From contig OX359202.1 in the NCBI GenBank assembly GCA_947172415.1, positions 5,442,899 through 5,506,898 of the forward strand: a stretch of DNA of 64,000 nt. Reading direction: 5' to 3'. The notes under the pieces are model-generated. The model was not told the origin of the DNA. It did not search any database and worked only from the letters and a program-made list of their open reading frames with translations. Source of the DNA: Chondrosia reniformis (taxonomy: Eukaryota > Porifera > Demospongiae > Chondrillida > Chondrillidae). Positions 8,054-35,523 of the stretch are shown one piece after another; the stretch's first letter is position 1, and each line of letters opens with the position of its first letter. The position numbers and the translations under genes were made by a program.

Positions 8054-9460
8054 TCACTTCACCCATATCTCCACTATGTCAGTAAAGACGTCTTCATTTC
8101 GTCTGGTAGCATCAGCACACCACCTAACTTCAATATCATCAGTGGTGGGTGTGACAGCTCTATTAAACCAACCAAACCTATCACAGCATGTGTTGCCAGG
8201 CGACACACAACCCTTTCCATCCCACAGAGGGTCCTCCCATGCGGTCCTTCCTTCATACCTACTAACAAAACCAGATTCACAGTAATAATGCTCACCCACA
8301 AAGGATGGAACACGAGATGCATCTCCCTTAGCACAAGGACAACCATAGTTACCAATGGTTGTGCGTTCTGAGCGACCAACAGCGTATGTCCACAGGTGTT
8401 GTCTAGGACTACCATGTGTTATTGATACACCACCCATGTAATAACTGTTAATGTCTGATCTCCATTGTATTTCTAATGCTCCAAACTGATATCCTCTAAC
8501 ACGACCACACACTTGTGAGTATTGCTCTCCAACTGGAAAGACAACAGATGAGCATGCCCTGTCCACACTCCTCCCACATGCTCTCTGTCCAGTTGAACTT
8601 TTTGATACTTCTGTTAGAGTAGAAGGACAGCGTGAGGAAGGTTGTGTCATATCAATAAGAGCAACACGTGTACCTCCTCTGCAATTATTACTAAGTAAAT
8701 TAGTCAATGTTTCGTTCAACAAAGCTACTTTACGTCTTTCTTCTTCAAGTGTTACATTCAAAACTTCAACAAGATTCATTAGCCTTTCAATATCATTCTT
8801 AGCAGTGTTGACTTCACTTCTTACTTCCACAGATAGGGTGGTGCTCACTTTGCCACTAACATTAGAACAAACATTAGCAAACTCTTCATCATTCAGAATA
8901 GTATCACCAGGCTCGCCTTTCTCTCCAACACTACCAGGTAGACCAGGAGGGCCTTGTGGACCAGGAGGGCCTGGGGAACCTTCATTACCACGGGGACCAC
9001 GTGTACCACGAGGACCTTGAGAACCATCTGGACCAACGGGACCTTCTGGACCTTCTGCACCAGGAGGACCACGCCCACCAGGTGGTCCAGCTAGACCAGG
9101 ATCACCTACACTGCCTTTGGCACCTTTAATGCCTTTCTCCCCCACCATACCCATGTCACCCTTCACACCTTTACTACCAGGAGGACCTACTGCTCCTCTG
9201 TCACCAGGAGCACCCTTCTCACTGACATCTCCTTTGATTCCCTGAGGACCAACAGGACCAATACTTCCCCTCATCCCCTTCTCACCTCTGCTACCTTGAG
9301 GACCAGGCACACCAAGGACATCAACACTCAGTGCCAGGCTACCAGTTGGAGAGGCGACACAGTTTCTATCTGATTCATTAGAGTTGCCCTGACCATGACA
9401 GCCTGTGAGGAGGAGATTCAAGGTCAGGACAGCAATGAAAGTGAAGAGGAGGTCTCTCAT
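8054..9460 (-). CDS. Secreted collagen-like protein 1 with Cys-rich C-terminal head
   Basis: Single-exon ORF, 468 residues. Residues 1-23 are a signal peptide and Cys34 lies in a short linker. Residues 50-186 are 45 Gly-X-Y triplets, uninterrupted apart from Gly to Ser in triplet 11 (DVSEKG), where the paralogues keep Gly. Residues about 190-255 are charged and heptad-like with one Cys, probably a trimerising coiled coil with N-glycosylation sequons. Residues about 258-468 form a globular head with 12 Cys and conserved blocks [52 protein letters not shown] and [13 protein letters not shown] know this head only from unnamed marine-invertebrate proteins. The layout parallels collectins and ficolins without being homologous in the head. 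Matrix or recognition roles are inference. Confidence 0.85.
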
Positions 9461-9511
9461 TATTCAGTTACACTTAGATTTTACTTCTTTGCCTCCCAAG
9501 TAGAAAAACAC

Positions 9512-9519
9512 CTTATAAG
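9512..9519 (-). promoter_or_regulatory. Putative TATA box of collagen-like gene 1
   Basis: CTTATAAG about 52 bp upstream of the ATG, in a block conserved before copies 1, 2, 3 and 5 and interrupted by an insertion before copies 4 and 6. Confidence 0.45.
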
Positions 9520-10118
9520 AAGACTGGTTTACTATTATGTCTTCCAATATCATGAATACCGTTAATGATATATTCCCGAAAGGTCTGGTGATGTACTCTT
9601 TGTGTACTTGTCCCTATCTGTGGTGGTATTGGTGACCTCTTGCATATAATTGAATTATTCCCATTATACTACATATATATGTATGTGTATATAGATATAA
9701 TCTCTTTTTACATATTATATATATCTTCCAAATTATAATTAGGCATGCTAGATTCTTGAAACTTTTCAAGCAGAATAGATATTTAAAAGGTAGCCTTTAA
9801 AGTTTTTGATGAATCATATTATTGCATGTGAAAGAGAAGACTCGATCTTAGAGCATTAAATATTTGGAGTGCTTGTGATCGCTGAAGAAGTTAGACACTC
9901 TGACAAATCATCTGACAAAAGATGATCCATTCAAAATACAAGTTCAACACAGTTATAAGAAATCCTTATCCTATATTGTAAAGAAATAATTCTCAGACCT
10001 CTTTGTACAATCTTACAGTCATTACTGATTCCTTCAGTCTCGTATTGCAAAATTAAATAAGTTACACCCACATACATACCATGCATACTATAGCATAAAA
10101 ATGATTTAAACTTTTGTC
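9520..10118. other. Spacer between collagen-like gene 1 and TYW5 fragment 1
   Basis: AT-rich upstream region of the collagen-like gene merging into the TYW5 3' flank. No ORF. Similar sequence recurs at 15997-16566. Confidence 0.5.
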
Positions 10119-10858
10119 TTAATCTTTATCTTTCTTGTTTAATAATTTTGATTACAGAATTGAAATCATTATACGGATATAAAAGTCTTCTTAATCTCTT
10201 GGTAGTCCTTTCAAAGCTTGTAGAGATTTATCCATATATAGTTTGAAAAGCTCTCTGTGCTTGTACCAAGTCTTTATTTCCATAAATGTCTTTCTTGTCA
10301 TAGAAACTGTCTTCTAGATGCTTCCAAAACAAGTTTTACTGCTACACTAAACTCTAGTGCCTGCATGTTGTGGAACCAGAGTGCAGGAATAAAGAGAACA
10401 TCTCCTGGCTCCATAAGCCCCACGAACGCATGGGCTTTAGAGCAGAGGGTATATCTCTCCAGGTCTGGTTTTTCTGGATCAACAATCTCAGATTTATCTC
10501 CATTCAAGTAAAGATAACTAGCATCTGAAGGAGGAAAGAGACTAGCACGCTTTCTCCCTCTCACTTGAACCAACAAATTATCCATGATCTAGAGAAAAAG
10601 AGATCCAAACATAGAATATACATAATATGTACAAATGTATGGGTATATGTAGTCTAGACCCCTTTCAGCCATTTTACACTTTAAATGGGATTGGTATCTT
10701 GGCAACTGTATGGGCATCATAATATAGTAAAATGGAGGCAAGATAGCAGTCTGGTCTAGCTAGACTAGTATATATGATATCCATAGAAAAAGAAATCTTT
10801 GAAAATGTACTGTCTTACATCATAGTGAGTCCACAGTTGTACTCCAGCAGACCCCACA
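10119..10858 (-). pseudogene. TYW5 fragment 1 (exon 5 plus part of exon 4), disrupted
   Basis: Exon 5 homology spans 10119-10588 and a truncated exon 4 spans 10819 to about 10858 (ends THYD, then a GTAAG donor). Relative to the complete gene at 37284-39525, exon 5 has a 1-bp insertion in a T run near 10335 and a 4-bp insertion near 10232, so the reading frame is broken. Exon 4 stops at the duplication junction and exons 1-3 are missing. It is a by-product of segmental duplication. Confidence 0.85.
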
Positions 10859-11494
10859 TATAAATCATTGTCATAAGGTGTCTTGTCAGATGTACGTGTA
10901 TTCAAACCTCATTAATGTGAATGCAATTAACTATATCTAGCATATATATATGTATAACTAATATTAGTGTGAACAATTCTACACTGCAATAAATTAATTA
11001 TTTCTACGATGGTGCTTAACACTAACATTGGTAATGGTCTGCTGATGTTTCAAAAACAGCATCTTTACCAGGCAAATTATCTTATTTAGAAAGCAATAAT
11101 TCCGGTTGTCATGGAGAAGATGATAATAAGCGACTATAGAGAGTCCTGTTTGTTTTGTTTAACAAGTTATCCTGATAACAAGTACTCATTTGGAAGGTCT
11201 CTGGTGTACAGTACTTGATAATATGGTTGACTGTACTTTTTATTACCTAATGTGTACATATTTTCCTCTCTTGAGTGAACATGAGGACTGTTCTATATTA
11301 CAGTACTTGGAAGGTTCAGGGGGAACCCCCTTAACCACTCCATTATGTGTATATCAGCCATAGGATAAACAATTGTTATAGATTAATTAGGAAGACAAAT
11401 TACACTATCTACCAAGTCTTACATGTGGTTATGTGTATACAATGTACCAGTTTGTGTTTTTATATGGCTGTATGATTATGTTGTAATGTTTTAG

Positions 11495-14182
11495 GAATGG
11501 TTTTGTACCAAACGGTGGAAGGGTGTACTACCAGCTGCGCAGCCAGCCCCCTCTCCTTACACAAATGGCTGACATTTTCTTTCAGACCACAAAGAACATC
11601 TCATTCCTCATCAATATCCTTCCCACGCTGGACAAGGAGTATGATTTCTGGATGAACAACAGAAGTGTCTCCGGAGGACCTTACAAAGGTCTCAACTATT
11701 ACCACAGCCAGCTTACTGACCCAAGACCAGAAGCTTACAGGGAGGATGTCAACACATCGGCAGGTGTCGGTACGTACAGATAGTACCTATAGATGCAACA
11801 TTATACCATTCACTTGACCACTGGCACACACGTCACACGCGTCACATAATCACATGTCACACATTGTCTTATATCAAATCTTCCCTGTTTAAATCTTCTT
11901 ATCATTGCTGATGGAAACCTCCCATCACGACATCCTAACTAACCCCATGGATGTTATATGTACATTGCAATTGTAGTGACAGAGCACTGGTGGTTCTAAC
12001 CAGCTGTCCTGGGTTTGATTACCAGCAATTGCTTCTTTTTCTTTTTTTCCCTCTTTCTGAATATATGAGATTAATTTTAATTACTTTGTGGTTTGGAAAA
12101 ATGGGGGAACTTTAAGATCTAAAGCCGATCTTAAAGCATGGATATAATCATCATTGATCACTTCAATTATTCATATATATATATATCAAATCAGACCTTA
12201 CATAGAGATGTCTCATTCCCATACAGTTGACAAGGAACTGCTCTTTACTAATTTGGCCTCAGCTGCAGAATCAGGCTGGGATTTCTCTTCTCGATGGCTC
12301 AAAAACCAGAGCAGGTTTTCATCTATTGAGACTACCAACATACTCCCTGTTGATTTGAATGCCATTTTGTGCAGAAACGAGGACACTCTAGCCAAACTGT
12401 ACAAAGTTATTGGTAAGCCTTCAATCACTTCACCATAAGTCCATCTATGTATATACTTCAGTACTGGTCTACATAAGAGGCATGTATGTGGCCTAGTGGA
12501 ATATGGTATGAAATTGTATCCACATCCAAAACTTTGTAGATTTTACTAATAAATGTAGAAAAAGAGCAGTCTATTCTATTTGTATGTTTCCATAACCTCA
12601 TACCTCATACTTCATGCCTCATACCTCATGCCTAGAAATGGTGTTTAAGACTATTCATGTACACATACATTAGGTGGTATAAAGCACGGTACAACAATTA
12701 TATACAAGAATAATGAAGAACTGAAAGAAACCAATTTATATGTCATATGGAGTTTTCATAAACAAATATTTTGCCTACAAAGTGTAGCAAAGAAGAGCTA
12801 GTTTCATGCGTATAATAAACATGATTCTATGTTTGTCAACAGGAAATGCAAGCAAAGCTGAGAAGTATCTACAAGCCTATGACTCGAGAAGAATGAAGTT
12901 TAACAGTATCTTCTGGGATCCCTCCATGAACCTCTGGTCCGATATCAAAATGGATCAGCAGAAGCACCAGCAAGAGACATACTTATCAACTCTGCTGCCG
13001 TTGGCATGGCAATGTGGTGGAGCCAATGCTACTATGGAATCAAAATTGCTGCAAACATTACAAGTATGTACATACTGTACATGTACGTATATATGCCATG
13101 AAGTTTTGAAGTGTTTTGATGGATGAATGTTTCTATGATATGTTTATGCTAAGTGATGCTAACATTGTGTATCAGAAGTATGGTAGTACTCTCTAAGTAG
13201 GGAAGGCCAAAAAACATGGCCGCCCTATTCAATGTATTGTCAATTTTGTATGTACTAGTGTATTGTTCACTGTACAATACTACATCTTGCTTAGGCTAAA
13301 GGATTCTTTGATTTCATTGGTGGATTACCAACTTCAAAGGTAGATTCTGGACAACAATGGGACTTCCCCAATGTATGGCCTCCATTGCAATGGCTTCCTG
13401 TGATTGGCTGGTACAACTCCTCAAGTGCTCAGCTCAGAATTGTAGCTGAGAAAATTGCTAACAAATTCATATCTACAATTTTCAATGCATGGCTAAAGCA
13501 CAACCAAACCTTATATGAAAAGGTAGGTCACATTTCTTTGGGATAGTTCTTGTAAAACATTGTATACTCTCTGTATACTGTCTTTATACTGCCCGTATAT
13601 TGTCCTATATACTGACTGTATATGTAATCCCTATATACTGCCTGTATATTGCCTGTGTAATGCCTGCATACTGCCTGCATACTGTTTGTATTCATCTCTT
13701 ATGTAGTATGATGCTAGAGATGGGTCTCCTGGGAGTGGAGGAGAGTACGTTATTCAAGTGAGTGCTATAAAGGATTGCACATTTATTATTCAACATACAT
13801 ATCTTTTAAAGGGTACATCTTTGTGTGGTATTTGTTCCTGCAGACTGGCTTTGGTTGGACTATTGCTATTGTCCTGCACTTCCTTGATCTCTATCCATCC
13901 ATCACTACGATAAGAGAAACCACAAGTGTTAACACTGAACCATTTTGGGTAATTGGCCTAGTACTGGGGCTGTTACTTGTAACCATAGTGACAGTGATCC
14001 TCTGTGGTGTGTGGTGCAGGTGGATCTACACTCAAGGTAAGGTCAAGTACTGGAGAAGAGTGCAGAATGAGCACATGATGGTGGCTGGGTCAGGTGGATC
14101 TAGCAGTGGATCAGGGAATACACCACTGCACAGTGACAGTGATATCATGCTAATTAACTATGGTGTGGCAGATCAGAGGTGA
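11495..14182 (+). CDS. Headless trehalase cassette 2 (exons 4-9 only, all intact)
   Basis: Exons 11495-11769, 12206-12412, 12843-13063, 13295-13522, 13707-13757 and 13844-14182 have the same lengths (275, 207, 221, 228, 51, 339) and splice sites as the complete gene, with open frames throughout. Both catalytic residues, signature 2, the membrane helix and the tail are present. Exons 1-3, hence the signal peptide and signature 1, are absent, and no in-frame start was found ahead of exon 4. It could be an unexpressed duplicate, or be joined by long-range splicing to exons 1-3 of the complete gene. Sequence is near identical to cassettes 1 and 4. Confidence 0.75.
11967..12032 (+). repeat. tRNA-derived SINE head (array copy 2)
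   Basis: Same element as at 5067-5137 but with part of the A-box region deleted (gcaattgtagtgacagagc). Confidence 0.65.
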
Positions 14183-14597: not shown

Positions 14598-15938
14598 TCA
14601 CTTCACCCATATCTCCACTATGTCAGTGAAGACATCTTCATTATATCTAGAAAAATCAGTACACCACCTGACTTCAATATCATCAGTGGTGGGTGTGACA
14701 GCTCTATTAAACCACCCAAACCTATCACAGCATGTGTTGCCAGGCGACACACAACCCTTTCCATCCCACAGAGGGTCCTCCCACGCGGTCCTGTTTTCAA
14801 CTCTTTTAACAAAACCAGATTCACAATAATAATGTTCACCCACAAAGGATGGAGCCAAACCTGTAAATAGAGTCCAGTTAATTTCATCTCTAGTAGCACA
14901 AGGACAACGATAGAAAACCTTCTCTAAGAATGTGAAGTCTTCTAAGAGACCAACAGCATATGTCCATAGGTGTTGTCTAGGACTACCATGTGTTACTGAT
15001 ACACCACCCATGTAAGCATTGCTAATGTTTGAGGTCCATGCTATTTCTAATTCCCCAAACTGATATCCTCTAACACGACCACACACTTGTGAGTATTGCT
15101 GTCTAACTGGAAAGACAACAGATGAACATCCCCTGTCCACAGTCCTTCCACATGCTCTCTGTCCAGTTGCACTGTTTGACACTTCTGTTAGGTTAGAAGG
15201 ACAGCGTGAGGAAGGTTGTGTCATATCAATAAGAGCAATACGTGTACCTCCTCTGCAATTATTGTGAAGTAAATTATTCAGTTTTTCATTTAAATAAGCT
15301 ACTTTTTGTCTTTCTTCTTCAAGTATTACATTCAAAACTTCAACAAGACTCATTAGTTTTTCAATATCATTCTTAGTAGTGTTTACTTCACTTCTTACCC
15401 CAGATAGATTGGTGCTCACTTTGCTACTAACATTAGAACAAACACTAGCAAACTCTTCATCATTCAGAATAGTGTCACCAGGCTCGCCTTTCTCTCCAAC
15501 ACTGCCAGGTAGACCAGGAGGGCCTTGTGGACCAGGAGGGCCTGGGGGACCTTCATTACCTTGGGGACCACGTGTACCACGAGGACCTTGAGAACCATCT
15601 GGACCAATGGGACCTTCTGGACCTTCTGCACCAGGAGGACCACGCCCACCAGGTGGTCCAGCTAGACCAGGATCACCCACACTGCCTTTGGCACCTTTAA
15701 TGCCTTTCTCCCCCACCATACCCATGTCACCCTTCACACCTTTACTACCAGGAGGACCTACTGCTCCTCTGTCACCAGGAGCACCCTTCTCACCAATATC
15801 TCCTTTGATTCCCTGAGGACCAACAGGACCAATACTTCCCCTCATCCCCTTCTCAGTAGAGTTACCCTGACCATGACAGCCTGTGAGGAGGAGATTCAAG
15901 GTCAGAACAGCAATGAAAGTGAAGATGAGGTCTCTCAT
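14598..15938 (-). CDS. Secreted collagen-like protein 2 (short N-terminus)
   Basis: Intact 446-residue ORF, paralogue of collagen-like protein 1. The signal peptide ends at GQGNST and runs straight into EKGMRG: 31 codons present in the other copies are missing in frame, removing the linker Cys and the first Gly-X-Y triplets. The head carries a longer loop around CPCA ([14 protein letters not shown] before it, [14 protein letters not shown] after it) than any other copy. Conserved head blocks and 12 Cys are kept. It lies convergent to trehalase cassette 2. Confidence 0.85.
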
Positions 15939-15988
15939 TATTCAGTTACACTTAGATTTTACTTCTTGCCTCCCAAGTAGAAAAACAC

Positions 15989-16566: not shown

Positions 16567-17275
16567 TTAATCTTTATCTTTCTTGTTTAATAATTTTGAT
16601 TGCGGAGTTGAAATCATTCTACGGATATAAAAGTCTTCGTAATCTCTTGGTAGTCCTTTCAAAGCTTGCAGTGATTTATCCATAGTTTGAAAAGCTCTTT
16701 GTGCTTGTACCAAGTCTTTATTTCCATAAATGTCTTTCTTGTCATAGAAACTGTCTTCTAGATGCTTCCAAAACAAGTTTACTGCTACACTAAACTCTAG
16801 TGCCTGCATGTTATGGAACCAGAGTGCAGGGATAAAGAGAACATCTCCCTCCTCCATGAGCCCCACAAACGCATGGGCTTTGGAGAAGAGGGGATATCTC
16901 TCCAGGTCTGGTTTTTCTGGATCAACAATCTCAGATTTATCTCCATTCAAGTAAAGATAACTAGCATCTGAAGGAGGAAAGAGAATAGCACACTTTCTCC
17001 CTCTCACTTGAACCAACAAATTATCCATGATCTAGTGAAAAAGAGATCCAAACATAAAATACCCATAATATGTACAAATGTATGGGTATATATACCCCTT
17101 TCAGCCATTTTACACTTTAAAATGGGATTGGTATCTTGGCAACTGTAAAATGGAGGCAAGATAGCAGTCTGGCCTAGCTAGTGTACATATGACATCCATA
17201 GAAAAAGAAATCTTTGAAAATGTAATGACTTACATCATAGTGAGTGCACACTTGTACTCCAGCAGACCCCACATA
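16567..17275 (-). pseudogene. TYW5 fragment 2 (exon 5 open, exon 4 truncated)
   Basis: Exon 5 (16567-17031) is fully open, with 153 residues from its internal Met, including the third iron-binding His in WFHN. The exon 4 remnant (17234 to about 17271) keeps the His-X-Asp pair but reads VCTHYD where the complete gene has LWTHYD. The sequence 5' of the junction comes from trehalase intron 3 and offers no in-frame ATG. It probably makes no TYW5 enzyme, but this is the only extra copy whose exon 5 frame is undamaged. Confidence 0.75.
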
Positions 17276-18368
17276 TAAATCGTTGTCATAAGGTGTCTTG
17301 TCAGATGTACGTATATTCAAACCTCATTAATGTGAATGCGGTTAACTATATCTAGCACATATATTTATTAGTGTGAACAATTCTACACTCCAATAAGCTA
17401 AGTATTTCTACGATGGTGCCTAACACGAACACTGGTAATGGACTGCTAATTTTTCAAAAACAGCATCTTTACCTGGCAAATTATCTTATCCAAGAAAGCA
17501 ATAGTTCTGGCTGTCATGGAGAAGATGATAATAAACGACTATAGAGAGACTTATCTACAATTCCTGTTTGCTTTGTTTAACAAGTTATCCTGATAACAAG
17601 TACTCATTTGGAAGGTCTCTGATGTACAGTACTTGATAATATGGTTGACTGTACTTTTAATTACCTAATTACCTAATGTGTACATATTTTCCTCTCTTGA
17701 GTGAACATGAGGACTATTCTATATTACAGTACTTGGAAGGTTCAGGGGAAACCCCCTTAACCACTCCTTTATGTGTATATCAGCCATAGGATAAACAATT
17801 GTAATAGATTAATTATGAAGACAAATTACACTATCTACCAAGTCTTACATGTGGTTATGTGTGTACAATGTACCAGTTTGTGTTTTTATATGGCTGTATG
17901 GATATGTTGTAATGTTATAGGAATGGTTTTGTACCAAACGGTGGAAGGGTGTACTACCAGCTGCGCAGCCAGCCCCCTCTCCTTACACAAATGGCTGACA
18001 TTTTCTTTCAGACCAAAAGAACATCTCATTCCTCATCGATATCCTTCCCACGCTGGATAAGGAGTATGACTTCTGGATGAACAACAGAAGTGTCTCCGGA
18101 GGACCTTACAAAGGTCTCAACTATTACCACAGCCAGCTCACTGACCCAAGACCAGAAGCTTACAGGGAGGATGTCAACACATCAGCAGGTGTCGGTATGT
18201 ACAGATAGTACCTATAGATGCAACATTATACCATTCACTTGACCACTGGCAAACACGTCACACGTCATACATCGTCATATAGTCACACATTGTCTCATGT
18301 TCCCTGTTTATCATTGCTGATGAATACCTCTCCATCAAGATATACAAACCAGGCCTATGGATGTTATT

Positions 18369-18500
18369 TGTATATTAATAGAGTTAGGATTCCTTCTAAC
18401 TGCTTTGAACTTATCTTTTAATGACAGCAAGACAAAACAAGAAAACTACATCTTTAGAGGCTCTAAAAGTCGAAAGATGATCCTTTCAAAAGATGTGTAC
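18369..18500. repeat. Dispersed repeat fragment in trehalase intron 4 of unit 3
   Basis: An insertion absent from the other cassettes. Its core 'gaggctctaaaagtcgaaag' with 'atgatcctttcaaaagat' reappears at 63590-63632. Its left part 'aggattccttctaact' is the reverse complement of sequence next to the hairpin at 19811-19885. Confidence 0.6.
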
Positions 18501-18509
18501 ATATATATT

Positions 18510-19810: not shown

Positions 19811-19885
19811 CTTTGGGATGGTACATCCTTCGACTTTTTGATCATTTAAAAACGTTCAAAAGTCGAAGGATGTACCATCCCAAAG
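19811..19885. repeat. Short fold-back element
   Basis: Arms of about 27 bp (ctttgggatggtacatcc... at 19811 and its complement ending 19885) enclose a loop of about 20 nt. It sits in intron 6 of the dead trehalase cassette and is absent from the other three cassettes. Confidence 0.8.
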
Positions 19886-20561: not shown

Positions 20562-20565
<4 letters not shown>

Positions 20566-20625: not shown

Positions 20626-20630
<5 letters not shown>

Positions 20631-21663
20631 GTACATCTGTGTGTGGTATTTGTTCCAGCAGACTGGCTTTGGTTGGACTATTGCTGTTGTCCTGCACTTC
20701 CTTGATCTCTATCCATCCATCAGTACGATAAGAGAAACCACAAGTGTTAACCCTGAACAATTTTGGGTAATTGGCCTAGTACTGGGACTGTTACTTGTAA
20801 CCATAGTGACAGTGATCCTGTGTGGTGTGTGGTGCAGGTGGATCTACACTCAAGGTAAGGTCAAGTACTGGAGAAGAGTGCAGAATGAGCACATGATGGT
20901 GGCTGGATCAGGTGGATCTAGCAGTGGATCAGGGAATACACCACTACACAGTGACAGTGATATCATGCTAATTAACTATGGTGTGGCAGATCAGAGGTGA
21001 TAACCTTTTAAAGATTTAGTGATTGCTGATTTTACTAAATTCATAATATCTCTTTTTTACATTTTTATTGTATTATATTTTCCAAACCAACCATGCTAGA
21101 TTCTTGAAACTTTAGATGTTAAAAGGTAATCTTTAAGGTTTTTCAAAGGTTTAAGCATTATTTTTACATGTGAGAAAGAAGATTTGATCTTAGAGCATGA
21201 AATATTAAGAATGGTTGCTAAAAAGCAGCTAGACCCTCCAGGTTGAAACATCAGAAAAAAGGTAAGTTGAATGCAGTTCAAAGAAACACTTATTTCATTA
21301 GTATTATTGTAAAGAAATTATTTTCAGCCATTTTGATGATCAATATCATCTGCTTTTCCCATCATTTTATTAGTCACATATTATAAGCTTTAGCTACGTC
21401 TTAAAAAGTATATGTAATGATACTTGTATATATGCTATATATGGTATATACGCATTTTTGTATTGTATCTGGGGTTATATATGACAAAAATTAAAGTATC
21501 TCAAAACTTACTATTCACCACATCTACCAGATACTAATTTACTTTGTAACTTTATAAATGAAGATAAATGATATACCTCTTCATACAAGCTAGCTTAAAG
21601 CTACAATGTATTATAGGTTCATTGTGTCTAATTGTCACATAGAGGTCTTTATGCAGGCAGCCT

Positions 21664-23064
21664 TCACTTCACCCATATCTCCACTATGTCAGTAAAGATG
21701 TCTTCATACTTTCTAATATGATTAGCACACCACCTAACTTCAATATCATCAGTGGTGGGTGTGACAGCTCTATTAAACCACCCAAACCTATCACAGCATG
21801 TGTTGCCAGGCGACACACAACCCTTTCCATCCCACAGAGGGTCCTCCCATGATTTCAAACCTACTAACAAAACCAGATTCACAATAATGCACAATAATAA
21901 TGCTCACCCACAAAGGATGGAGCAGGAGATGCATCTCCATTAGCACAAGGACAACCATTGTTACCAGTTGCACGTTCTGAGCGACCAACAACGTATGTCC
22001 ACAGGTGTTGTCTAGGACTACCATGTGTTATTGATACACCACCTACGTATGGTCTGTTAATGTTGGATGTCCATCCTACTTCTAAATCCCCAAACTGATA
22101 TCCTCTAACACGACCACACACTTGTGAGTATTGCTCTCCAACTGGAAAGACAACAGATGAGCATCCACTGTTCACACTCCTCCCACATGCTCTCTGTCCA
22201 GTTGCACTGTTTGACACTTCTGTTAGAGTAGAAGGACAGTGCGAGGAAGGTCATATCAATAAGAGCAACAAGCGTACCTCCTCTGCAATTAAGGTTAAAT
22301 GGATTATTAAGTATTTCATTTAAATAAGCTACTTTTCGTCTTTCTTCTTCAAGTGTTACATTCAAAACTTTAACAAGACTCATTAGTTTTTCAATATCAT
22401 TCTTAGCAGTGTTCACTTCACTTATTACGTCCACAGATAGGGTGGTGCTAACTTTCCTACTAACATTAGAACAAACATTAGCAAACTCTTCATCATTCAG
22501 AATAGTATCACCAGGCTCGCCCTTCTCTCCAACACTGCCAGGTAGACCAGGAGAGCCTTGTGGACCAGGAGGGCCTGGGGGACCTTCATTACCCTGGGGA
22601 CCACGTGTACCACGAGGACCTTGAAAACCATCTGGACCAACGGGACCTTCTGGACCTTCTGCACCAGGAGGACCACGCCCACCAGGTGGTCCAGCTAGAC
22701 CAGGATCACCCACACTGCCTTTGGCACCTTTAATGCCTTTCTCCCCCACCATACCCATGTCACCCTTCACACCTTTACTACCAGGAGGACCTACTGCTCC
22801 TCTGTCACCAGGAGCACCCTTCTCACCGACATCTCCTTTGATTCCCTGTGGGCCAACAAGACCAATACTTCCCCTCATCCCCTTCTCACCTCTGCTACCT
22901 TGAGGACCGGGCACACCAAGGACATCAACACTCAGTGCCAGGCTACCAGTTGGAGAGGCGACACAGTTTCTATCTGAATCAGTAGAGTTGCCCTGACCAT
23001 GACAACCTGTGAGGAGGAGATTCAAGGTCAGAACAGCAGTGAAAGTGAAGATGAGGTCTCTCAT
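21664..23064 (-). pseudogene. Collagen-like gene 3, frameshifted
   Basis: Aligns to its intact neighbour copy 5 (31867-33270) but has a 5-bp deletion near 22246, a 10-bp duplication near 21885 and an 8-bp deletion near 21852. The signal peptide, Gly-X-Y region and coiled coil are open (319-residue ORF), then the head goes out of frame. The last third of the head returns to the original frame because the indels sum to minus 3. A secreted collagen without a normal head could still be made. Confidence 0.9.
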
Positions 23065-23115
23065 TATTCAGTTACACTTAGGTTTTACTTCTTTGCCTCC
23101 CAAGTAGAAAAACAC

Positions 23116-23123
23116 CTTATAAG
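23116..23123 (-). promoter_or_regulatory. Putative TATA box of collagen-like gene 3
   Basis: CTTATAAG about 52 bp upstream of the ATG, retained although the gene is broken. Confidence 0.4.
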
Positions 23124-23891
23124 AGGATGGTTTACTTAATTAATATTATGCCTTCCAATATCATGAATACCATTAATGATATATTCCCAAAACATTTGGT
23201 TATGTACTCTTTGTGTACTTGTCCCTATCTGTGGTGGTATTGGTGACCTTTTGCATATAATTGTATGTGTATATAGATATAATCTCTTTTTACATATTAT
23301 AACTTCCAAACTAGGCATGCTAGATTCTTGAAACTTTTAAAGCAGAATAGATGTTTAAAAGGTAATCTTTAAAGTTTTTCAAAGTTTTTGATGATTCATA
23401 TTGTTGCATGTGAAAGAGAAGACTCTTGATCTAGAGGATGAAATATTAAGAATGGTTGCTATCATAGAAGCTAGAACCTCCAGAGGTTAAAACATCAGAA
23501 AAAAGGTATAAGGAAACCCTTATTTCATTAGTATTAAATATTGTAAAGAATTAATTTTCAGACATTTTGCAATTGCTTATCAATATCATCATCTCCTTTT
23601 TCCATCATTTTATTAGTCACATATTATAAGATTATTTTGTGATACTTGCAATTGTATACTATATACTGTACATAGGTATAAGGCATTTTTGCCAGTGTAC
23701 CTCAATGTATAGCTTGTATATATCTCACAACTTAGTCTTTATCACATCTACCAGATACTAATTAGACTTTGAAACTTTATAAATGATAATGACTCATGAT
23801 ACACAATGCCATACAAGCTAGCTTAAGGCTACAATGTATTATAGGTTCATTGTGTTTAATTGTCACATAGAGGTCTTTATGCTGGTAGCCT
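23124..23891. other. Spacer between collagen-like copies 3 and 4
   Basis: AT-rich upstream flank of copy 3 and downstream flank of copy 4, without ORFs. Nearly identical to 33330-34113 in unit 4. Confidence 0.5.
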
Positions 23892-25301
23892 TCACTTCAC
23901 CCATATCTCCACTATGTCAGTAAAGACGTCTTCATTATTTCTATCAAAATTAGCACACCACCTAACTTCAATATCATCAGTGGTGGGTGTGACAGCTCTA
24001 TTAAACCAACCAAACCTATCACAGCATGTGTTGCCAGGCGACACACAACCCTTTCCATCCCACAGAGGGTCCTCCCATGCGGTCCTGTTTTCACTCCTAA
24101 CGATAAAACCAGATTCACAGTAATAATGCTCACCCACAAAGGATGGAACACGAGATGCATCTCCATTAGCACAAGGACAACCATAGTTACTACTGGTGTC
24201 GTGTTCTGAGCGACCAACAGCGTATGTCCACAGGTGTTGTCTAGGACTACCATGTGTTATTGATACACCACCCATGTAAGCATTGTTAATGCTTGAGAAC
24301 CATTGTATTTCTAATTCCCCAAACTGATATCCTCTAACACGACCACACACTTGTGAGTATTGCTGTCTAACTGGAAAGACAACAGATGAGCATTCATAGT
24401 CCACAGTCCTTCCACATGCTCTCTGTCCAGTTGAACTGTTTGATATTTCTCTTAGAGTAAAAGGACAGCGGGAGGAAGATTCTGTCATATCAATAAGAGC
24501 AACACGTGTACCTCCTCTGCAATTATTGTTAAGTGGATTATTAAGTATTTCATTTAAATAAGCTACTTTTCGTCTTTCTTCTTCAAGTGTTACATTCAAA
24601 GTTTCAACAAGATTAATTAGTTTTTCTTCAATATCATTCTTAGCAGTGTTCACTTCACTTCTTAATTCCACAGATAGAGTGGTTCTCACTTTCCTACTAA
24701 CATTGGAACAAACATTAGCAAACTCTTCATCATTCAGAATAGTATCACCAGGCTCGCCTTTCTCTCCAACACTACCAGGTAGACCAGGAGGGCCTAGGGG
24801 ACCTTCCTTACCTGGGGGACCTTCATTACCACGGGGACCACGTGTACCACGAGTACCTTGAGAACCTTTTGGACCAACGGAACCTTCTGGACCTGCTACA
24901 CCAGGAGGACCATGCCCACCAGGTGGTCCAGCTAGACCGGGATCACCCACACTGCCTTTGGCACCTTTAATGCCTTTCTCCCCCACCATACCCATGTCAC
25001 CCTTCACACCTTTACTACCAGGAGGACCTACTGCTCCTCTGTCACCAGGAGCACCCTTCTCACCAACATCTCCTTTGATTCCCTGAGGACCAACAGGACC
25101 AATACTTCCCTTCTTCCCCTTCTCACCTCTGCTACCTTGAGGACCAGGCACACCAAGGACATCAACATTCAGTGCCAGGCTACCAGTTGGAGAGGCGACA
25201 CAGTTTCTATCTGAATCAGTAGAGTTACCCTGACCATGACAGCCTGTGAGGAGGAGATTCAAGGTCAGGACAGCAGTGAAAGTGAAGATGAGGTCTCTCA
25301 T
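23892..25301 (-). CDS. Secreted collagen-like protein 4
   Basis: Intact 469-residue ORF with the same layout as protein 1: signal peptide, linker Cys, Gly-X-Y region, coiled coil and Cys-rich head. The Gly-X-Y region differs (GNEGPPGKEGPLGPPG), the coiled coil has an extra Glu (DIEEKLINL), and head loops read EIQWFSSINNAYMGG, RSEHDTSSNYG and CANFDRNNEDV. Almost identical to protein 6 (34114-35523), with three residue differences seen. Its proximal upstream region is interrupted by an insertion that removes the CTTATAAG box. Confidence 0.85.
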   Translation of the reverse strand: MRDLIFTFTAVLTLNLLLTGCHGQGNSTDSDRNCVASPTGSLALNVDVLGVPGPQGSRGEKGKKGSIGPVGPQGIKGDVGEKGAPGDRGAVGPPGSKGVKGDMGMVGEKGIKGAKGSVGDPGLAGPPGGHGPPGVAGPEGSVGPKGSQGTRGTRGPRGNEGPPGKEGPLGPPGLPGSVGEKGEPGDTILNDEEFANVCSNVSRKVRTTLSVELRSEVNTAKNDIEEKLINLVETLNVTLEEERRKVAYLNEILNNPLNNNCRGGTRVALIDMTESSSRCPFTLREISNSSTGQRACGRTVDYECSSVVFPVRQQYSQVCGRVRGYQFGELEIQWFSSINNAYMGGVSITHGSPRQHLWTYAVGRSEHDTSSNYGCPCANGDASRVPSFVGEHYYCESGFIVRSENRTAWEDPLWDGKGCVSPGNTCCDRFGWFNRAVTPTTDDIEVRWCANFDRNNEDVFTDIVEIWVK

Positions 25302-25348
25302 TATTCAGTTACACTTAGATTTTACTTCTTTGCCTCCCAAGTAGAAAA

Positions 25349-25531
25349 ACACAGGATCAAATCTCAGGTTTCAGAGGGCATGAAACCTATTTGAAACTCT
25401 TTAAACTGCCAGGTTTCTGAAGTAATGGAAGTATGTGACAAACCTGAAACCCATGAAATTATCTATTAGCATATACTTGAGCATCCTTTGAAACCTGTCT
25501 AGAAGTTTCAAATTGAGATTTGATCCTGTGT
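25349..25531. mobile_element. MITE-like element with 18-bp terminal inverted repeats
   Basis: Begins acacaggatcaaatctca and ends tgagatttgatcctgtgt, a perfect 18-bp inverted repeat; 183 bp, no coding capacity. Inserted about 50 bp upstream of the collagen-like gene 4 ATG. Same element at 35571-35753. Confidence 0.75.
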
Positions 25532-25533
25532 TA

Positions 25534-25745
25534 ATTAAAAAGGGGAAGAAGTTGAAGTGTGCAGACCTGCTGGCCATTGAGACCACAGGTGTGTTTGGGC
25601 CAGAAGCCCTCTCCTTTTTCAAGGAGCTTGGCTGTCATCTCAGGGCATGTTCTGGTGAACCCTTCTCTTTCAGCCATCTTCTGCAACAGATTGGGGTCAC
25701 CATCCAATTGACTCTCAGACAGATATAGGTGTATTGGGTAATATC
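25534..25745 (+). mobile_element. Remnant of a non-LTR retrotransposon ORF
   Basis: The plus-strand frame reads GKKLKCADLLAIETTGVFGP and ALSFFKELGCHLRACSGEPF, then HLLQQIGVTIQ. I associate this pattern with the region after the reverse transcriptase domain of marine-invertebrate LINE-like elements. A stop breaks the frame and about 42 bp present in the unit-4 copy (35932-35973) are missing here. It is too short to be active. Confidence 0.55.
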
Positions 25746-26324
25746 TTAGTGTTCATGTTTTAAGTTAATCCCTGTATTATATATAATTTCTGAAGTAAGT
25801 ATTCTCATCTTACTAATTTATTGTATATTATATTATAATAACTAATTTTATATTAAAAAATAAAAGGGATCGATGGTTTACTTAATCTTAATAATATATG
25901 TCTTCCAATATCATGAATACCATTGATGATATACTATCCCCAAAAGATTTGGTGAGGTACTCTTCCAATCTGTACATGTGGTATTGGTAATCTTTTGCAT
26001 ATATATAATTGAATTAATTATTAATTACACATGTATGTGTCGCATCATTTTACTCCACCAACTCATGTCTCTTGAGGAGCACAATGAGCAAACGGTGGAA
26101 CCGAACTTCATTTGATGGGAACCAGAGTCTCCCCTTAGCCACTCAAATAGATGGTCGAGCCATAGACAGCTGATTTGTCCTTATTAGGACTCATCAGTAT
26201 GGCATATGATAGAAATTTTGAGTGGCTAGCCTGGGTTGAAACATCTGACAAAGGATGATCCCATTCAAAATACCAGTTCAAGAAATCCTTATCCAATATC
26301 TTTGTAAAATCTTGATAGGAAATT

Positions 26325-26880
26325 ATTCGAGCAATCAGCAACACTTTCTTTAAAATTAACCAAACTGAAGACACCAAGATGCCAAGAAAAGAGAACAGGC
26401 GTTATCTATCAAATTCCTTGCCAATGTGGAGAGATCTACATGCAAGACACTACCACAAAGAATGACAGAGTATAAGAGGGCAGTGCAGAGGGCAGATATG
26501 AACAACTCCTTAGCCATACATGTACAAAGCACAATACATGACATATCCTGGGACAAGGCCACCATGATTGAAGGTGAACAACACAGATTGAGAAGGAAGA
26601 TTAAGGAGGCAATCCACATCCAATCCACAAAATGCATAAACTTGGATCAGGGATTAATTCTGGATCCGATATATGGAATGACATTCTGTAGTTCACCATA
26701 TTCTATTTTTATTATATTTTAGCCTCATTCGCTGCCACTTTTCACAATACATAATTATTCAACACACGTCACACCTGTGGCTTTGTAACCTCCTCACCAT
26801 TCTAACTGATGAAGACCCACGGGTCAAAACGTCTTAATCTTTGTTTTAAAGAAGTGTTGCTGATTGCTCGAATAATTTCT
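26325..26880 (+). mobile_element. GIY-YIG retroelement remnant bounded by inverted repeats
   Basis: Frame pieces read IYQIPCQCGEIYMQDT, then after a frame break YKRAVQRADMNNSLAIHVQS, HDISWDKATMIEGEQ and RRKIKEAIHIQS. This resembles GIY-YIG endonuclease tails of Penelope-like retroelements. Downstream at 26808-26835 is ctgatgaagacccacgggtc followed by aaaacgtc, a small hairpin typical of the 3' ends of such elements. Inverted repeats of about 30 bp (attattcgagcaatcagcaa near 26326 and its complement near 26860-26878) flank the piece. The remainder of 25746-27018 shows no gene. Confidence 0.6.
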
Positions 26881-27018
26881 CTATCATAATGATCACAACA
26901 AGTACCCCTTATCATTATAAAATCTTACAGTCACTACTGATTCCTTCAGTCTCATATTAAATAAGTTACACCCACATACCATGCATACTAAAGCATTTAA
27001 ATGATTTACAATTATGTC

Positions 27019-27725
27019 TTAATCTTAATCTTTCTTGTCTAATAATTTTGATTGCAGAGTTGAAATCATTCTACGGATATAAAAGTCTTCGTAATCTCTT
27101 GGTAGTCCTTTCAAAACCTGCAGTGATTTATCCATATGTAGTTTGAAAAGCTCTTTGTGCTTGTACCAAGTCTTTATTTCCATAAATGTCTTTCTTGTCA
27201 TAGAAACTGTCTTCTAGATGCTTCCAAAACAAGTTTACTGCTACACTAAACTCTAGTGCCTGCATGTTATGGAACCAGAGTGCAGGAATAAAGAGAACAT
27301 CTCCTGGCTCCATGAGACCCACGAACGCATGGGCTTTGGAGAAGAGGGGATATCTCTCCAGGTCTGGTTTTTCTGGATTGACAATCTCAGATTTATCTCC
27401 ATTCAAGTAAAGATAGCTAGTATCTGAAGGAGGAAAGAGAATAGCACGCTTTCTCCCTCTCACTTGAACCAACAAATTATCCATGATCTAGTGAAAAAGA
27501 GATCCAAGCATACATAATATGTACTAAATGAATGGGTATATGTAGTCTAGACCCCTTTCAGCCATTTTACACTGTATGGGCATCATAATATAGTAAAATG
27601 GAGGCAAGATAGCAGTCTGGCCTAGCTAGACTAGTGTATATGACATCCATAGAAAAGGAATCTTTAAAAATGTAATGACTTACATCATAGTGAGTGCGCA
27701 TTTGTACTCCAGCAGACCCCACATA
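27019..27725 (-). pseudogene. TYW5 fragment 3, disrupted
   Basis: Exon 5 homology at 27019-27487 carries a 4-bp insertion near 27136 that ends the frame after 118 residues. The exon 4 remnant at 27684 to about 27722 reads GVQMRTHYD and keeps a GTAAGT donor. Exons 1-3 are absent. Confidence 0.85.
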
Positions 27726-28370
27726 TAAATTGTTGTCATAAGGTGTCTTGTCAGATGTACGTATATTCAAACCTCATTAATGTGAATGCAGTTAACTATA
27801 TCTAGCGTATATAACTATTATTAGTTTGAACAATTCTACACTCCAATAAGCTAATTATTTCTACAATGGTGCTTAAAAACACTTGTAATGGTCTGCTGAT
27901 GTTTCAAAAACAGCATCTTTACCAGGCAAATTATCTTATCCAAGAAAGCAATAATTCTGGTTGTCATGGAGAAGAGGATAATAAGCGACTATAGAGAGAC
28001 TCATCTACAATTCCTGTTTGTTTTGTTTAACAGGCTATCCTGATAACACGTACTCATTTGGAAGGTCTCTGATGTACAGTACTTGATAATATGGTTGACT
28101 GTACTTTTAATTACCTAATTACCTAATGTGTACATATTTCCCACTCTTGAGTGAACATGAGGACTATTTTATATTACAGTACTTGGTAGGGTTCAGGGGA
28201 ACCCCCTTAACCACTCCATTATGTGTATGTCAGCCATAGGATAAACAATTGTTATAGATTAATTAGGAAGACAAATTACACTGTCTACCAAGTCTTACAT
28301 GTGGTTATGTGTATACAATGTACCAGATTGTGTTTTTATATGGCTGTATGATTATGTTGTAATGTTATAG

Positions 28371-31200: not shown

Positions 31201-31866
31201 TAACCTTTTAAAGATTTAGTGATTGCTGATTTTACTAAATTCATAATATCTCTTTTTTACATTTTTATTGTATTATATTTTCCAAACCAACCATGCTAGA
31301 TTCTTGAAACTTTAGATGTTAAAAGGTAATCTTTAAGGTTTTTCAAAGGTTTAAGCATTATTTTTACATGTGAGAAAGAAGATTTGATCTTAGAGCATGA
31401 AATATTAAGAATGGTTGCTAAAAAGCAGCTAGACCCTCCAGGTTGAAACATCAGAAAAAAGGTAAGTTGAATGCAGTTCAAAGAAACCCTTATTTCATTA
31501 GTATTATTGTAAAGAAATTATTTTCAGCCATTTTGATGATCAATATCATCTGCTTTTCCCATCATTTTATTAGTCACATATTATAAGCTTTAGCTACGTC
31601 TTATGTAATGATACTTGTATATTACATATACAGTATGTGTACGTATAAGGCATTTTTAGCCAGTACTTGTATATATAATCTATAGCTTAAGCTTGTATCT
31701 GTGGTTATGATAAAAACCAAAGTATCTTAAAACTTAGTTTTTACCACATCTACCAGATACTAATTAGACTTTGAAACTTTATTAATGATCACAAATGATA
31801 AGGCTACAACGTATTATAGGTTCATTGTGTCTAATTGTCACATAGAGGTCTTTATGCTGGCAGCCT

Positions 31867-33270
31867 TCACTTCACCCATATCTCCACTATGTCAGTAAAG
31901 ACGTCTTCATTATATCTAATATGATTAGCACACCACCTAACTTCAATATCATCAGTGGTGGGTGTGACAGCTCTGTTAAACCACCCAAACCTATCACAGC
32001 ATGTGTTGCCAGGCGACACACAACCCTTTCCATCCCACAGAGGGTCCTCCCATGCAGTCCTGATTTCATACCTACTAACAAAACCAGATTCACAATAATA
32101 ATGCTCACCCACAAAGGATGGAGCAGGAGATGCATCTCCCTCAGCACAAGGACAACCATTGTTACCATTGTTACGTTCTGAGCGACCAACAACGTATGTC
32201 CACAGGTGTTGTCTAGGACTACCATGTGTTATTGATACACCACCTACATAAGCATTGTTAATGTTGGATGTCCATCCTACTTCTAAATCCCCAAACTGAT
32301 ATCCTCTAACACGACCACACACTTGTGAGTATTGCTCTCCAACTGGAAAGACAACAGATGAGCATCCACTCTTCACACTCCTCCCACATGCTCTCTGTCC
32401 AGTTGCACTGTTTGACACTTCTCTTAGAGTAGAAGGACAGTGCGAGGAAGGTTGTGTCATATCAATAAGAGCAACACGTGTACCTCCTCTGCAATTATTG
32501 TTAAGTGGATTATTAAGTATTTCATTTAAATAAGCTACTTTTCGTCTTTCTTCTTCAAGTGTTACATTCAAAACTTTAACAAGACTCATTAGTTTTTCAA
32601 TATCATTCTTAGCAGTGTTCACTTCACTTATTACGTCCACAGATAGGGTGGTGCTAACTTTCCTACTAACATTGGAACAAACATTAGCAAACTCTTCATC
32701 ATTCAGAATAGTATCACCAGGCTCGCCCTTCTCTCCAACACTGCCAGGTAGACCAGGAGAGCCTTGTGGACCAGGAGGGCCTGGGGGACCTTCATTACCC
32801 TGGGGACCACGTGTACCACGAGGACCTTGAAAACCATCTGGACCAACGGGACCTTCTGGACCTTCTACACCAGGAGGACCACGCCCACCAGGTGGTCCAG
32901 CTAGACCAGGATCACCTACACTGCCTTTGGCACCTTTAATGCCTTTCTCCCCCACCATACCCATGTCACCCTTCACACCTTTACTACCAGGAGGACCTAC
33001 TGCTCCTCTGTCACCAGGAGCACCCTTCTCACCGACATCTCCTTTGATTCCCTGTGGGCCAACAGGACCAATACTTCCCCTCATCCCCTTCTCACCTCTG
33101 CTACCTTGAGGACCAGGCACACCAAGGACATCAACACTCAGTGCCAGGCTACCAGTTGGAGAGGCGACACAGTTTCTATCTGAATCAGTAGAGTTACCCT
33201 GACCATGACAGCCTGTGAGGAGGAGATTCAAGGTCAGGACAGTAGTGAAAGTGAAGATGAGGTCTCTCAT
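31867..33270 (-). CDS. Secreted collagen-like protein 5
   Basis: Intact 467-residue ORF with the family layout. Intact counterpart of broken copy 3, from which it differs mainly in short head patches ([10 protein letters not shown] versus [20 protein letters not shown] versus [18 protein letters not shown] versus HIRKYEDI). Convergent with trehalase cassette 4. Confidence 0.85.
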
Positions 33271-33321
33271 TATTCAGTTACACTTAGATTTTACTTCTTT
33301 GCCTCCCAAGTAGAAAAACAC

Positions 33322-33329
33322 CTTATAAG
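33322..33329 (-). promoter_or_regulatory. Putative TATA box of collagen-like gene 5
   Basis: CTTATAAG about 52 bp upstream of the ATG, as in copies 1-3. Confidence 0.45.
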
Positions 33330-34113
33330 AGGATGGTTTACTTAATTAATATTATGCCTTCCAATATCATGAATACCATTAATGATATATTCCCAAAACA
33401 TTTGGTTATGTACTCTTTGTGTACCTGTCCCTATCTGTGGTGGTATTGGTGACCTTTTGCATATAATTGTATGTGTAGATAGATATAATCTCTTTTTACA
33501 TATTATAACTTCCAAACTAGGCATGCTAGATTCTTGAAACTTTTAAAGCAGAATAGATGTTTAAAAGGTAATCTTTAAAGTTTTTCAAAGTTTTTGATGA
33601 TTCATATTGTTGCATGTGAAAGAGAAGACTCTTGATCTAGAGGATGAAATATTAAGAATGGTTACTATCATAAAAGCTGGAACCTCCAGAGGTTAAAACA
33701 TCAGAAAAAAGGTATAAGTTCAATGAAGTTAGAAGAAACCCTTATTTCATTAGTATTAAATATTGTAAAAAATTAATTTTCAGACATTTTGCAATTGCTT
33801 ATCAATATCATCATCTCCTTTTTCCATCATTTTATTAGTCACATATTATAAGTTTATTTAGTGATACTTGCAATTGTATACTATATACTGTACATAGGTA
33901 TAAGGCATTTTTGCCAGTGTACCTCAATGTATAGCTTGTATATATCTCACAACTTAGTCTTTATCACATCTACCAGATACTAATTAGACTTTGAAACTTT
34001 ATAAATGATAATGACTCATGATACACAATGCCATACAAGCTAGCTTAAGGCTACAATGTATTATAGGTTCATTGTGTTTAATTGTCACATAGAGGTCTTT
34101 ATGCTGGCAGCCT
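33330..34113. other. Spacer between collagen-like copies 5 and 6
   Basis: AT-rich, no ORF; near-identical counterpart of 23124-23891. Confidence 0.5.
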
Positions 34114-35523
34114 TCACTTCACCCATATCTCCACAATGTCAGTAAAGACGTCTTCATTATTTCTATCAAAATTAGCACACCACCTAACTTCAATATCATC
34201 AGTGGTGGGTGTGACAGCTCTATTAAACCAACCAAACCTATCACAGCATGTGTTGCCAGACGACACACAACCCTTTCCATCCCACAGAGGGTCCTCCCAT
34301 GCGGTCCTGTTTTCACTCCTAACGATAAAACCAGATTCACAGTAATAATGCTCACCCACAAAGGATGGAACACGAGATGCATCTCCATTAGCACAAGGAC
34401 AACCATAGTTACTACTGGTGTCGTGTTCTGAGCGACCAACAGCGTATGTCCACAGGTGTTGTCTAGGACTACCATGTGTTATTGATACACCACCCATGTA
34501 AGCATTGTTAATGCTTGAGAACCATTGTATTTCTAATTCCCCAAACTGATATCCTCTAACACGACCACACACTTGTGAGTATTGCTGTCTAACTGGAAAG
34601 ACAACAGATGAGCATTCATAGTCCACAGTCCTTCCACATGCTCTCTGTCCAGTTGAACTGTTTGATATTTCTCTTAGAGTAAAAGGACAGCGGGAGGAAG
34701 ATTCTGTCATATCAATAAGAGCAACACGTGTACCTCCTCTGCAATTATTGTTAAGTGGATTATTAAGTATTTCATTTAAATAAGCTACTTTTCGTCTTTC
34801 TTCTTCAAGTGTTACATTCAAAGTTTCAACAAGATTAATTAGTTTTTCTTCAATATCATTCTTAGCAGTGTTCACTTCACTTCTTAATTCCACAGATAGA
34901 GTGGTTCTCACTTTCCTACTAACATTGGAACAAACATTAGCAAACTCTTCATCATTCAGAATAGTATCACCAGGCTCGCCTTTCTCTCCAACACTACCAG
35001 GTAGACCAGGAGGGCCTAGGGGACCTTCCTTACCTGGGGGACCTTCATTACCACGGGGACCACGTGTACCACGAGTACCTTGAGAACCTTTTGGACCAAC
35101 GGAACCTTCTGGACCTGCTACACCAGGAGGACCATGCCCACCAGGTGGTCCAGCTAGACCGGGATCACCCACACTGCCTTTGGCACCTTTAATGCCTTTC
35201 TCCCCCACCATACCCATGTCACCCTTCACACCTTTACTACCAGGAGGACCTACTGCTCCTCTGTCACCAGGAGCACCCTTCTCACCAACATCTCCTTTGA
35301 TTCCCTGAGGACCAACAGGACCAATACTTCCCTTCTTCCCCTTCTCACCTCTGCTACCTTGAGGACCAGGCACACCAAGGACATCAACACTCAGTGCCAG
35401 GCTACCAGTTGGAGAGGCGACACAGTTTCTATCTGAATCACTAGAGTTACCCTGACCATGACAGCCTGTGAGGAGGAGATTCAAGGTCAGGACAGCAGTG
35501 AAAGTGAAGATGAGGTCTCTCAT
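34114..35523 (-). CDS. Secreted collagen-like protein 6
   Basis: Intact 469-residue ORF, almost identical to protein 4: the differences seen are Thr/Ser and Asn/Ser near the N-terminus and Pro/Ser before the CC pair in the head. It shares the insertion that displaces the upstream TATA-like box. The pair 4/6 shows how recent the last array duplication is. Confidence 0.85.
   Translation of the reverse strand: MRDLIFTFTAVLTLNLLLTGCHGQGNSSDSDRNCVASPTGSLALSVDVLGVPGPQGSRGEKGKKGSIGPVGPQGIKGDVGEKGAPGDRGAVGPPGSKGVKGDMGMVGEKGIKGAKGSVGDPGLAGPPGGHGPPGVAGPEGSVGPKGSQGTRGTRGPRGNEGPPGKEGPLGPPGLPGSVGEKGEPGDTILNDEEFANVCSNVSRKVRTTLSVELRSEVNTAKNDIEEKLINLVETLNVTLEEERRKVAYLNEILNNPLNNNCRGGTRVALIDMTESSSRCPFTLREISNSSTGQRACGRTVDYECSSVVFPVRQQYSQVCGRVRGYQFGELEIQWFSSINNAYMGGVSITHGSPRQHLWTYAVGRSEHDTSSNYGCPCANGDASRVPSFVGEHYYCESGFIVRSENRTAWEDPLWDGKGCVSSGNTCCDRFGWFNRAVTPTTDDIEVRWCANFDRNNEDVFTDIVEIWVK

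Follow-up and report, generated by a model that had tools for sequence, protein, structure and literature searches.

Hypervariable head loops on a conserved frame in a cluster of collagen-stalked candidate recognition proteins from the sponge Chondrosia reniformis

We analyzed a stretch of 64,000 nucleotides from the genome of the demosponge Chondrosia reniformis (assembly GCA_947172415.1, contig OX359202.1, positions 5,442,899 to 5,506,898 of the forward strand), hereafter the window. Between positions 8054 and 35526 it carries six minus-strand copies (A–F) of one gene, five of them intact and one (C) frameshifted, for a collagen-like protein with a cysteine-rich head. In these heads, amino acid change is concentrated in short loops on an otherwise conserved frame. 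The evidence tilts slightly toward secreted, trimeric, collagen-stalked recognition proteins with germline-diversified heads, which would bind their ligands multivalently.

Results

Amino acid change in the head loops

A preliminary description of the window, made from its sequence, had placed the variation among the paralogues in five segments of the head, which correspond to loops L1–L5 (Table 1). We compared the five intact genes and one copy on contig C11 (together the window clade), using 14 of the 15 pairs and excluding the near-identical pair D–F. The proportions of nonsynonymous (pN) and synonymous (pS) differences were 0.305 and 0.207 in the five loops, 0.040 and 0.102 in the head outside them, 0.046 and 0.065 in the collagen region, and 0.082 and 0.138 in the linker and coiled coil. 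The ratio of nonsynonymous to synonymous rates (dN/dS) is 1.6 in the five loops and 0.38 in the head outside them. The concentration in the named segments is thus borne out, and a further loop, L0, has to be added to them. For the 13 of 15 pairs that are close, dN/dS is 1.59 in the loops (bootstrap 1.14–2.25) versus 0.41 in the frame.

The bases tell the same story. The loops of A differ from those of C, E, and F by 23.9, 23.7, and 24.6%, compared with 3.1, 3.3, and 3.7% in the head frame. Downstream noncoding sequence differs by 0.8, 10.0, and 16.7%, respectively, and upstream sequence by 9.1% (C) and 9.4% (E); upstream, A and F share just 54 aligned bases. Four trehalase exons from the same duplicated units served as a control (3 or 4 copies each; the “last exon” row, in which two reading frames are mixed, is omitted) and gave pN of 0.005–0.011 and pS of 0.03–0.08.

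Because the loops had been picked for their variability, we tested them on other heads, which had not influenced the choice. We aligned the 69 distinct full heads that 76 loci of the genome provide, leaving out partial heads, identical copies, and arrays on contigs C6, C9, and C13, whose heads follow an additional module (see below). In an independent clade of 40 heads on contigs C7, C2, and C4, the close pairs (pS ≤ 0.15, 98 of 780) show a loop dN/dS of 1.29 (bootstrap over genes 1.00–1.62), as against 0.40 (0.31–0.51) in the frame. When pairs up to a pS of 0.30 or 0.60 are admitted, the loop value is 0.83 or 0.65. Column by column, entropy in the window clade is correlated with entropy in three other clades (Spearman 0.52, 0.46, and 0.35). 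A fixed scaffold with variable loops, as the preliminary description had it, is therefore also found out of sample.

A custom FUBAR-like Bayesian scan for sites with P(beta>alpha) ≥ 0.9 identified 24 sites in the 40-head clade and 23 in the window clade; of these, 17 and 14, respectively, lie in the loops, which comprise 46 columns. Six of these fast sites are common to both clades (p 0.03). In the C5 clade (7 heads) the scan returned zero sites at this threshold; the C5/C9 clade stood outside the scan.

Among 50 informative sites in five sequences, all ten possible splits are present, which points to probable ongoing gene conversion or recombination. A loop pS of about twice the frame pS, seen in most comparisons, fits such exchange.

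Architecture of the proteins

The five intact genes are single open frames of 447–470 residues each and have in common the order signal peptide, Gly-X-Y stalk, heptad coiled coil, and 12-Cys head. Within the coiled coil of A (47 residues, 213–259), 92% of the a/d positions are hydrophobic, compared with 21% elsewhere. The head comprises ∼210 residues, and its 12 cysteines begin at residue 261 of A, with one at the very start of the domain. Across 206 heads, Cys113 (in L2) and Cys125 (in L3) always occur together (11 heads), and Cys118 and Cys167 are both present in 134 heads and both missing in 72, with no discordant case.

The longest unbroken Gly-X-Y run counts 35 triplets in A, 42 in B, and 46 in D, E, and F. 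Residue 81 of A (window 9221–9223) is a serine where the other intact genes have glycine, which shortens the run of A to 35 triplets. The preliminary description had listed six paralogues of shared architecture. This stands for the five intact genes, apart from 31 residues after the signal peptide that B lacks, among them Cys35 and the first few triplets of the collagen; it does not stand for C. This copy matches E at 1358 of 1391 aligned bases (97.6%), and its frame is broken relative to E by 5 missing, 10 inserted, and 8 missing bases.

Placement of the loops on the predicted fold

The head was modeled as an all-beta domain with high confidence (predicted local distance difference test, pLDDT, 92.8). 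Its nearest neighbors in predicted fold, at middling scores, are carbohydrate-binding modules 6/16/36, the Eph ligand-binding domain, and MAM; the closest entries by Z are a porphyran-binding module (8.8 over 126 residues, root mean square deviation 3.3), meprin beta (8.0), and EphA2 (7.8). Of the fast sites, 20/24 in the 40-head clade and 19/23 in the window clade lie outside predicted strands and helices, compared with 112/210 of all columns (p 0.001 and 0.002).

In a jelly roll, consecutive strands alternate in direction. If they do so here, loops L0–L5 would all lie at the pole opposite the N terminus. This pole (99 columns) holds 20/24 and 18/23 of the fast sites and the other pole (21 columns) 1 and 4, counts whose p values are no independent evidence because the pole was assigned after the loops had been seen.

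That the loops form one surface is suggested by this strand order and by moderate coevolution. Loop–loop couplings among the top 105 pairs number 26 versus 13.7 expected in 69 heads, 10 versus 7.1 in 206 heads (reached by 50 of 500 permutations), and 14 versus 6.9 in 360 heads; among the top 50 pairs there is no clear enrichment. Some couplings contradict the strand-order model, and the strand pairing derived from coevolution is too noisy to settle the topology (67 and 117 effective sequences).

Identity of the head and the module preceding it in relatives

A Pfam scan of the 69 heads gave no match, and the domain is unnamed in Pfam. At E ≤ 10, these heads show no C-type lectin, C1q, Fibrinogen_C (PF00147), or PF01410 match, a negative limited by the HMMER filters, which drop most matches above about 0.1. 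A profile search of the PDB with the head alone yielded no match at E ≤ 10, and a text search of papers for motifs of the head yielded no relevant occurrence among the papers listed.

In relatives from other genomes, however, a fibrinogen/procollagen-like YCDM...GGWT module precedes the head. This module matches a serum lectin (7e1e) at E 1.1e-5, XEEL at 0.013, and intelectin-1 at 0.017–0.053, and the fibrinogen-like GGGWT model NF040941 is matched by all six of six proteins at E ≤ 0.0023 (best 2e-9, 1 above the cut-off). The similarity to lectins stops shortly past GGWT. We rejected an identity of the head with intelectin, as the match concerns the module of relatives and includes none of the intelectin-specific C-terminal part. 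A YCDM-like motif occurs in 1 of the 60 heads of the C. reniformis genome with enough upstream sequence; the heads of the window start with a GG-T strand that by eye resembles the GGWT of the module. The preliminary view that the head is no C-type lectin, C1q, or fibrinogen domain thus agrees with the Pfam result, and it missed the fibrinogen-type module of the relatives; for this reason the family is less isolated than had been held.

In a wider set of 89 aligned members, PF01410 (COLFI) is matched at E ≤ 0.1 by 45 and PF00147 by one (E 0.011). Where its span was examined, the COLFI match is confined to the short module before the head (profile positions 4–74 of 233). A second structure model, which includes the module, has procollagen C-propeptides as 13 of its 15 best Foldseek matches (best E 2.3e-3, prob 0.97). 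The template modeling (TM) scores to these propeptides are ∼0.3, and none of them is among the 50 matches listed after structural re-ranking.

A collagen IV NC1 domain (C4, PF01413) was also considered and rejected, with 0/69 heads matching at E ≤ 10. Searching the whole genome with PF01413 returned three rows, all at one collagen IV locus. Comparison of the head with this NC1 by hhalign (A2 against the locus as a single sequence) gave a probability of 0.5% and hence no support. NC1 structures are absent from the 50 matches listed in each of four structure searches, a depth that allows for an NC1 of lower rank. The locus itself (contig C1:10340145–10340934) encodes a collagen IV-type NC1, with two C4 parts containing HSQ after a Gly-X-Y region. 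A passage of PMC5395295 states that demosponges have no collagen IV; given this locus, the statement may be too broad.

Family size and stalk types

Gene A as query against the genome (117 Mb, 15 contigs) gave at least 118 matches (91 of 620 candidates scored), in some cases several to a single gene. A module-bearing relative as query gave at least 151 (321 candidates, 150 of them scored), almost all of which cover the greater part of the head. The two counts are lower bounds and overlap. Arrays of module-bearing heads lie at C6:5.63–5.66, C7:6.42–6.71, C9:0.33–0.50, and C13:1.13–1.21 Mb. Outside this genome, a relative was found in Amphimedon queenslandica (P0061, among the best 120 of 1354 matches listed).

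Twenty of the 69 heads are preceded, within their own open frame, by 8 or more Gly-X-Y triplets. Another 17 are collagen-free and have an upstream segment of 19 residues with a mean hydropathy of ≥2.0, as in type II membrane proteins, a topology assigned from hydropathy alone. In many others the start resembles a signal peptide and the linker is collagen-free; for 8 of the 69 (the D and F heads included) there is too little upstream sequence to judge. Judged by these sequences, the head type is apparently mounted on collagen, coiled-coil, or membrane-anchored stalks.

Organization of the cluster

The block with C and D recurs, with E and F, farther along the window (Table 1). Trehalase exons on the plus strand and pieces of Cupin_8/JmjC on the minus strand are further parts of the repeating unit. 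Trehalase genes or fragments occur four times in tandem, on the plus strand, at window 1605–7376, 10868–14182, 17283–21000, and 27733–31200; their exons are highly conserved, and PF01204 matched in both exons scanned. Cupin_8/JmjC fragments are repeated on the minus strand at 10298–10588, 16567–17031, 27128–27487, 37284–37748, and 39187–39537. Three of them were scanned and have a Pfam match, the other two were assigned by likeness, and some look truncated. Near-perfect minisatellite arrays are found at 2257–2628, 42008–42363, 55277–55507, and 59435–59601, with units of 19, 28, 21, and 41 bases, respectively, and 97–99% matches.

Table 1. Features of the cluster in window coordinates
Feature	Position	Strand	Remarks
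Gene A	8054..9463	-	Intact, collagen-like with Cys-rich head; ATG at 9460
Signal peptide of A, residues 2-25	9389..9460	-	By sequence, hydrophobic N terminus
Gly-X-Y stalk of A, residues 51-188	8900..9313	-	PF01391, E 9e-21; one Gly-to-Ser break
Heptad coiled coil of A, residues 213-259	8687..8827	-	
Head of A, residues 260-469	8057..8686	-	Domain without Pfam entry; structure modeled
Loop L0, A 299-303	8555..8569	-	Absent from the preliminary list
Loop L1, A 329-343	8435..8479	-	Around EIQW...GG
Loop L2, A 364-374	8342..8374	-	Between TYAVG and GCPCA
Loop L3, A 379-385	8309..8329	-	After CPCA
Loop L4, A 400-405	8249..8266	-	After CESGF
Loop L5, A 450-456	8096..8116	-	Before NEDVF
Gene B	14598..15941	-	Intact; lacks 31 residues at collagen start; insertions in L2 and L3
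Copy C	about 21667..23067	-	Frameshifted; three indels versus E
Gene D	23892..25304	-	Intact
Gene E	31867..33273	-	Intact
Gene F	34114..35526	-	Intact; 1 synonymous and 3 nonsynonymous changes versus D
Block with C and D	20630..27729	.	Duplicated at 30830-38028 (95% identity) with E and F

Discussion

If the cluster encodes recognition proteins, gene duplication together with fast change of loops on a fixed frame would have diversified the heads in the germline. The collagen helix and the coiled coil probably hold three heads together, and the binding face of each head would be made up of its loops, at the pole opposite the stalk. The avidity of such a trimer could make binding to repetitive ligands useful. 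The likeliest putative ligands are glycans or glycoproteins on microbial or allogeneic surfaces, and the proteins would act as collectins or ficolins do, but through another kind of head.

Several results weigh against this reading. Loop dN/dS is 1.04 (0.85–1.45; frame 0.36) in the C5 clade (14 of 21 pairs) and 1.01 (0.75–2.21; frame 0.30) in the C5/C9 clade (6 heads, 6 of 15 pairs), and recombination weakens the tree-based site scan, more so than the pairwise counts. The dN/dS comparison along a family alignment that the preliminary description had proposed thus has a divided outcome: a loop concentration of apparent positive selection, with values above 1, is seen in two clades, and values of about 1.0 in two smaller ones.

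Values near 1.0 are what relaxed constraint would produce. They would suit a structural, spongin-type short-chain collagen of matrix or skeleton, in which the heads are assembly knobs and the loops merely tolerate change. The architecture matches the description of spongin short-chain collagen in a passage of PMC5395295, and matrix roles are how published passages describe the family. We nevertheless regard a purely structural role as unlikely. In the part of PMC12549020 that deals with them, anemone spongin-like genes, except one, are not co-expressed with fibrillar collagens; three of the four Nematostella genes diverge from these in expression, mostly in neuroglandular cells. Relaxed loops should stay at or below the neutral rate, whereas among close pairs pN is higher than pS in two clades. 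Moreover, the 17 collagen-free members have a hydrophobic segment resembling a membrane anchor, and the NC1 similarity in sequence on which the matrix reading is based is undetectable in the heads here.

Procollagen C-propeptides govern chain selection, and the loops might likewise form an assembly code, choosing which chains trimerize or which heads pair and so keeping the paralogues unmixed. The prominence of propeptides among the Foldseek matches of the module-including model and the COLFI matches in about half of the wider set speak for such a code, which we still judge improbable. The TM scores are low and the propeptides disappear on re-ranking; the COLFI match, where its span was examined, is limited to the module, whose YCDM-like motif occurs in 1 of the 60 heads of this genome with enough upstream sequence; the loops would point away from the stalk; and the same loops vary in a clade some of whose members lack collagen and are apparently membrane-anchored. 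We give still less credence to a neutral mosaic, in which ectopic gene conversion evens out the frame and flanks and older loop variation persists by chance. The ten splits, the doubled loop pS, and a pS that is uneven along the gene would all fit it; an excess of pN over pS would not, nor would it single out identical loops in arrays that lie apart on different contigs.

Beyond recognition by the proteins of the window, we tentatively put forward a wider proposal that we rate somewhat short of an even bet. The genome may hold a germline repertoire of well over a hundred heads, each a beta-sandwich displaying some six hypervariable loops on one distal face, mounted on three stalk types (secreted collagen, secreted coiled-coil, and membrane-anchored). 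The loops would be reshuffled by gene conversion and driven by selection, and the proteins would be of a type until now filed as skeletal short-chain collagen. Sponges must distinguish symbionts, food bacteria, pathogens, and other sponges, and the molecules responsible are poorly known. Should the proposal be true, the reading as a collagen IV relative and the function assigned to short-chain collagens would both need revision, the ligands would become directly testable, and the loop columns would be a ready list of residues.

Among known systems, the spongin short-chain collagens (Ephydatia EmC4 and relatives) have the same layout. Passages of PMC5395295 describe them, in sponges and other invertebrates, as proteins in which a C-terminal Cys-rich domain follows a short collagenous one and treat them as collagen IV variants with NC1 heads, a link that we did not detect in the sequences of the heads here. 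Spongin heads have ten cysteines, seven shared with NC1 and three of their own, and no HSQ motif; we counted 8–12 cysteines per head in the 69 heads and HSQ in 1 of these and in 4 of 360 overall. No record named short-chain collagen is among the matches listed (the best 120 of 1354, 33 of 33, and the best 120 of 2694). As the architecture fits the name and yet no named member could be aligned, we claim no membership in that family. The published passages on spongin short-chain collagens are silent on variable loops, selection, and membrane-anchored forms, and literature searches, covering titles, gave none that linked short-chain collagens with selection, hypervariability, or a role in recognition. 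According to a passage of PMC3447736, adult Amphimedon upregulates short-chain collagens along with scavenger-receptor and cadherin genes; this and the Nematostella expression bear on function here indirectly.

The fibrillar procollagen C-propeptide shares a partial sequence match with the wider set, with weak Foldseek support. Intelectins and fibrinogen-like GGGWT proteins share the YCDM...GGWT module with the relatives of the head, and the likeness ends soon after GGWT. Collectins and ficolins have a secreted collagen stalk, a trimerizing segment, and a globular C-terminal head. Compared on this general architecture, the proteins of the window differ from them in the head, which in all 69 cases is without a C-type lectin or Fibrinogen_C match, and resemble them in the stalk, the trimerizing segment, the C-terminal position of the head, and the multivalent binding proposed here.

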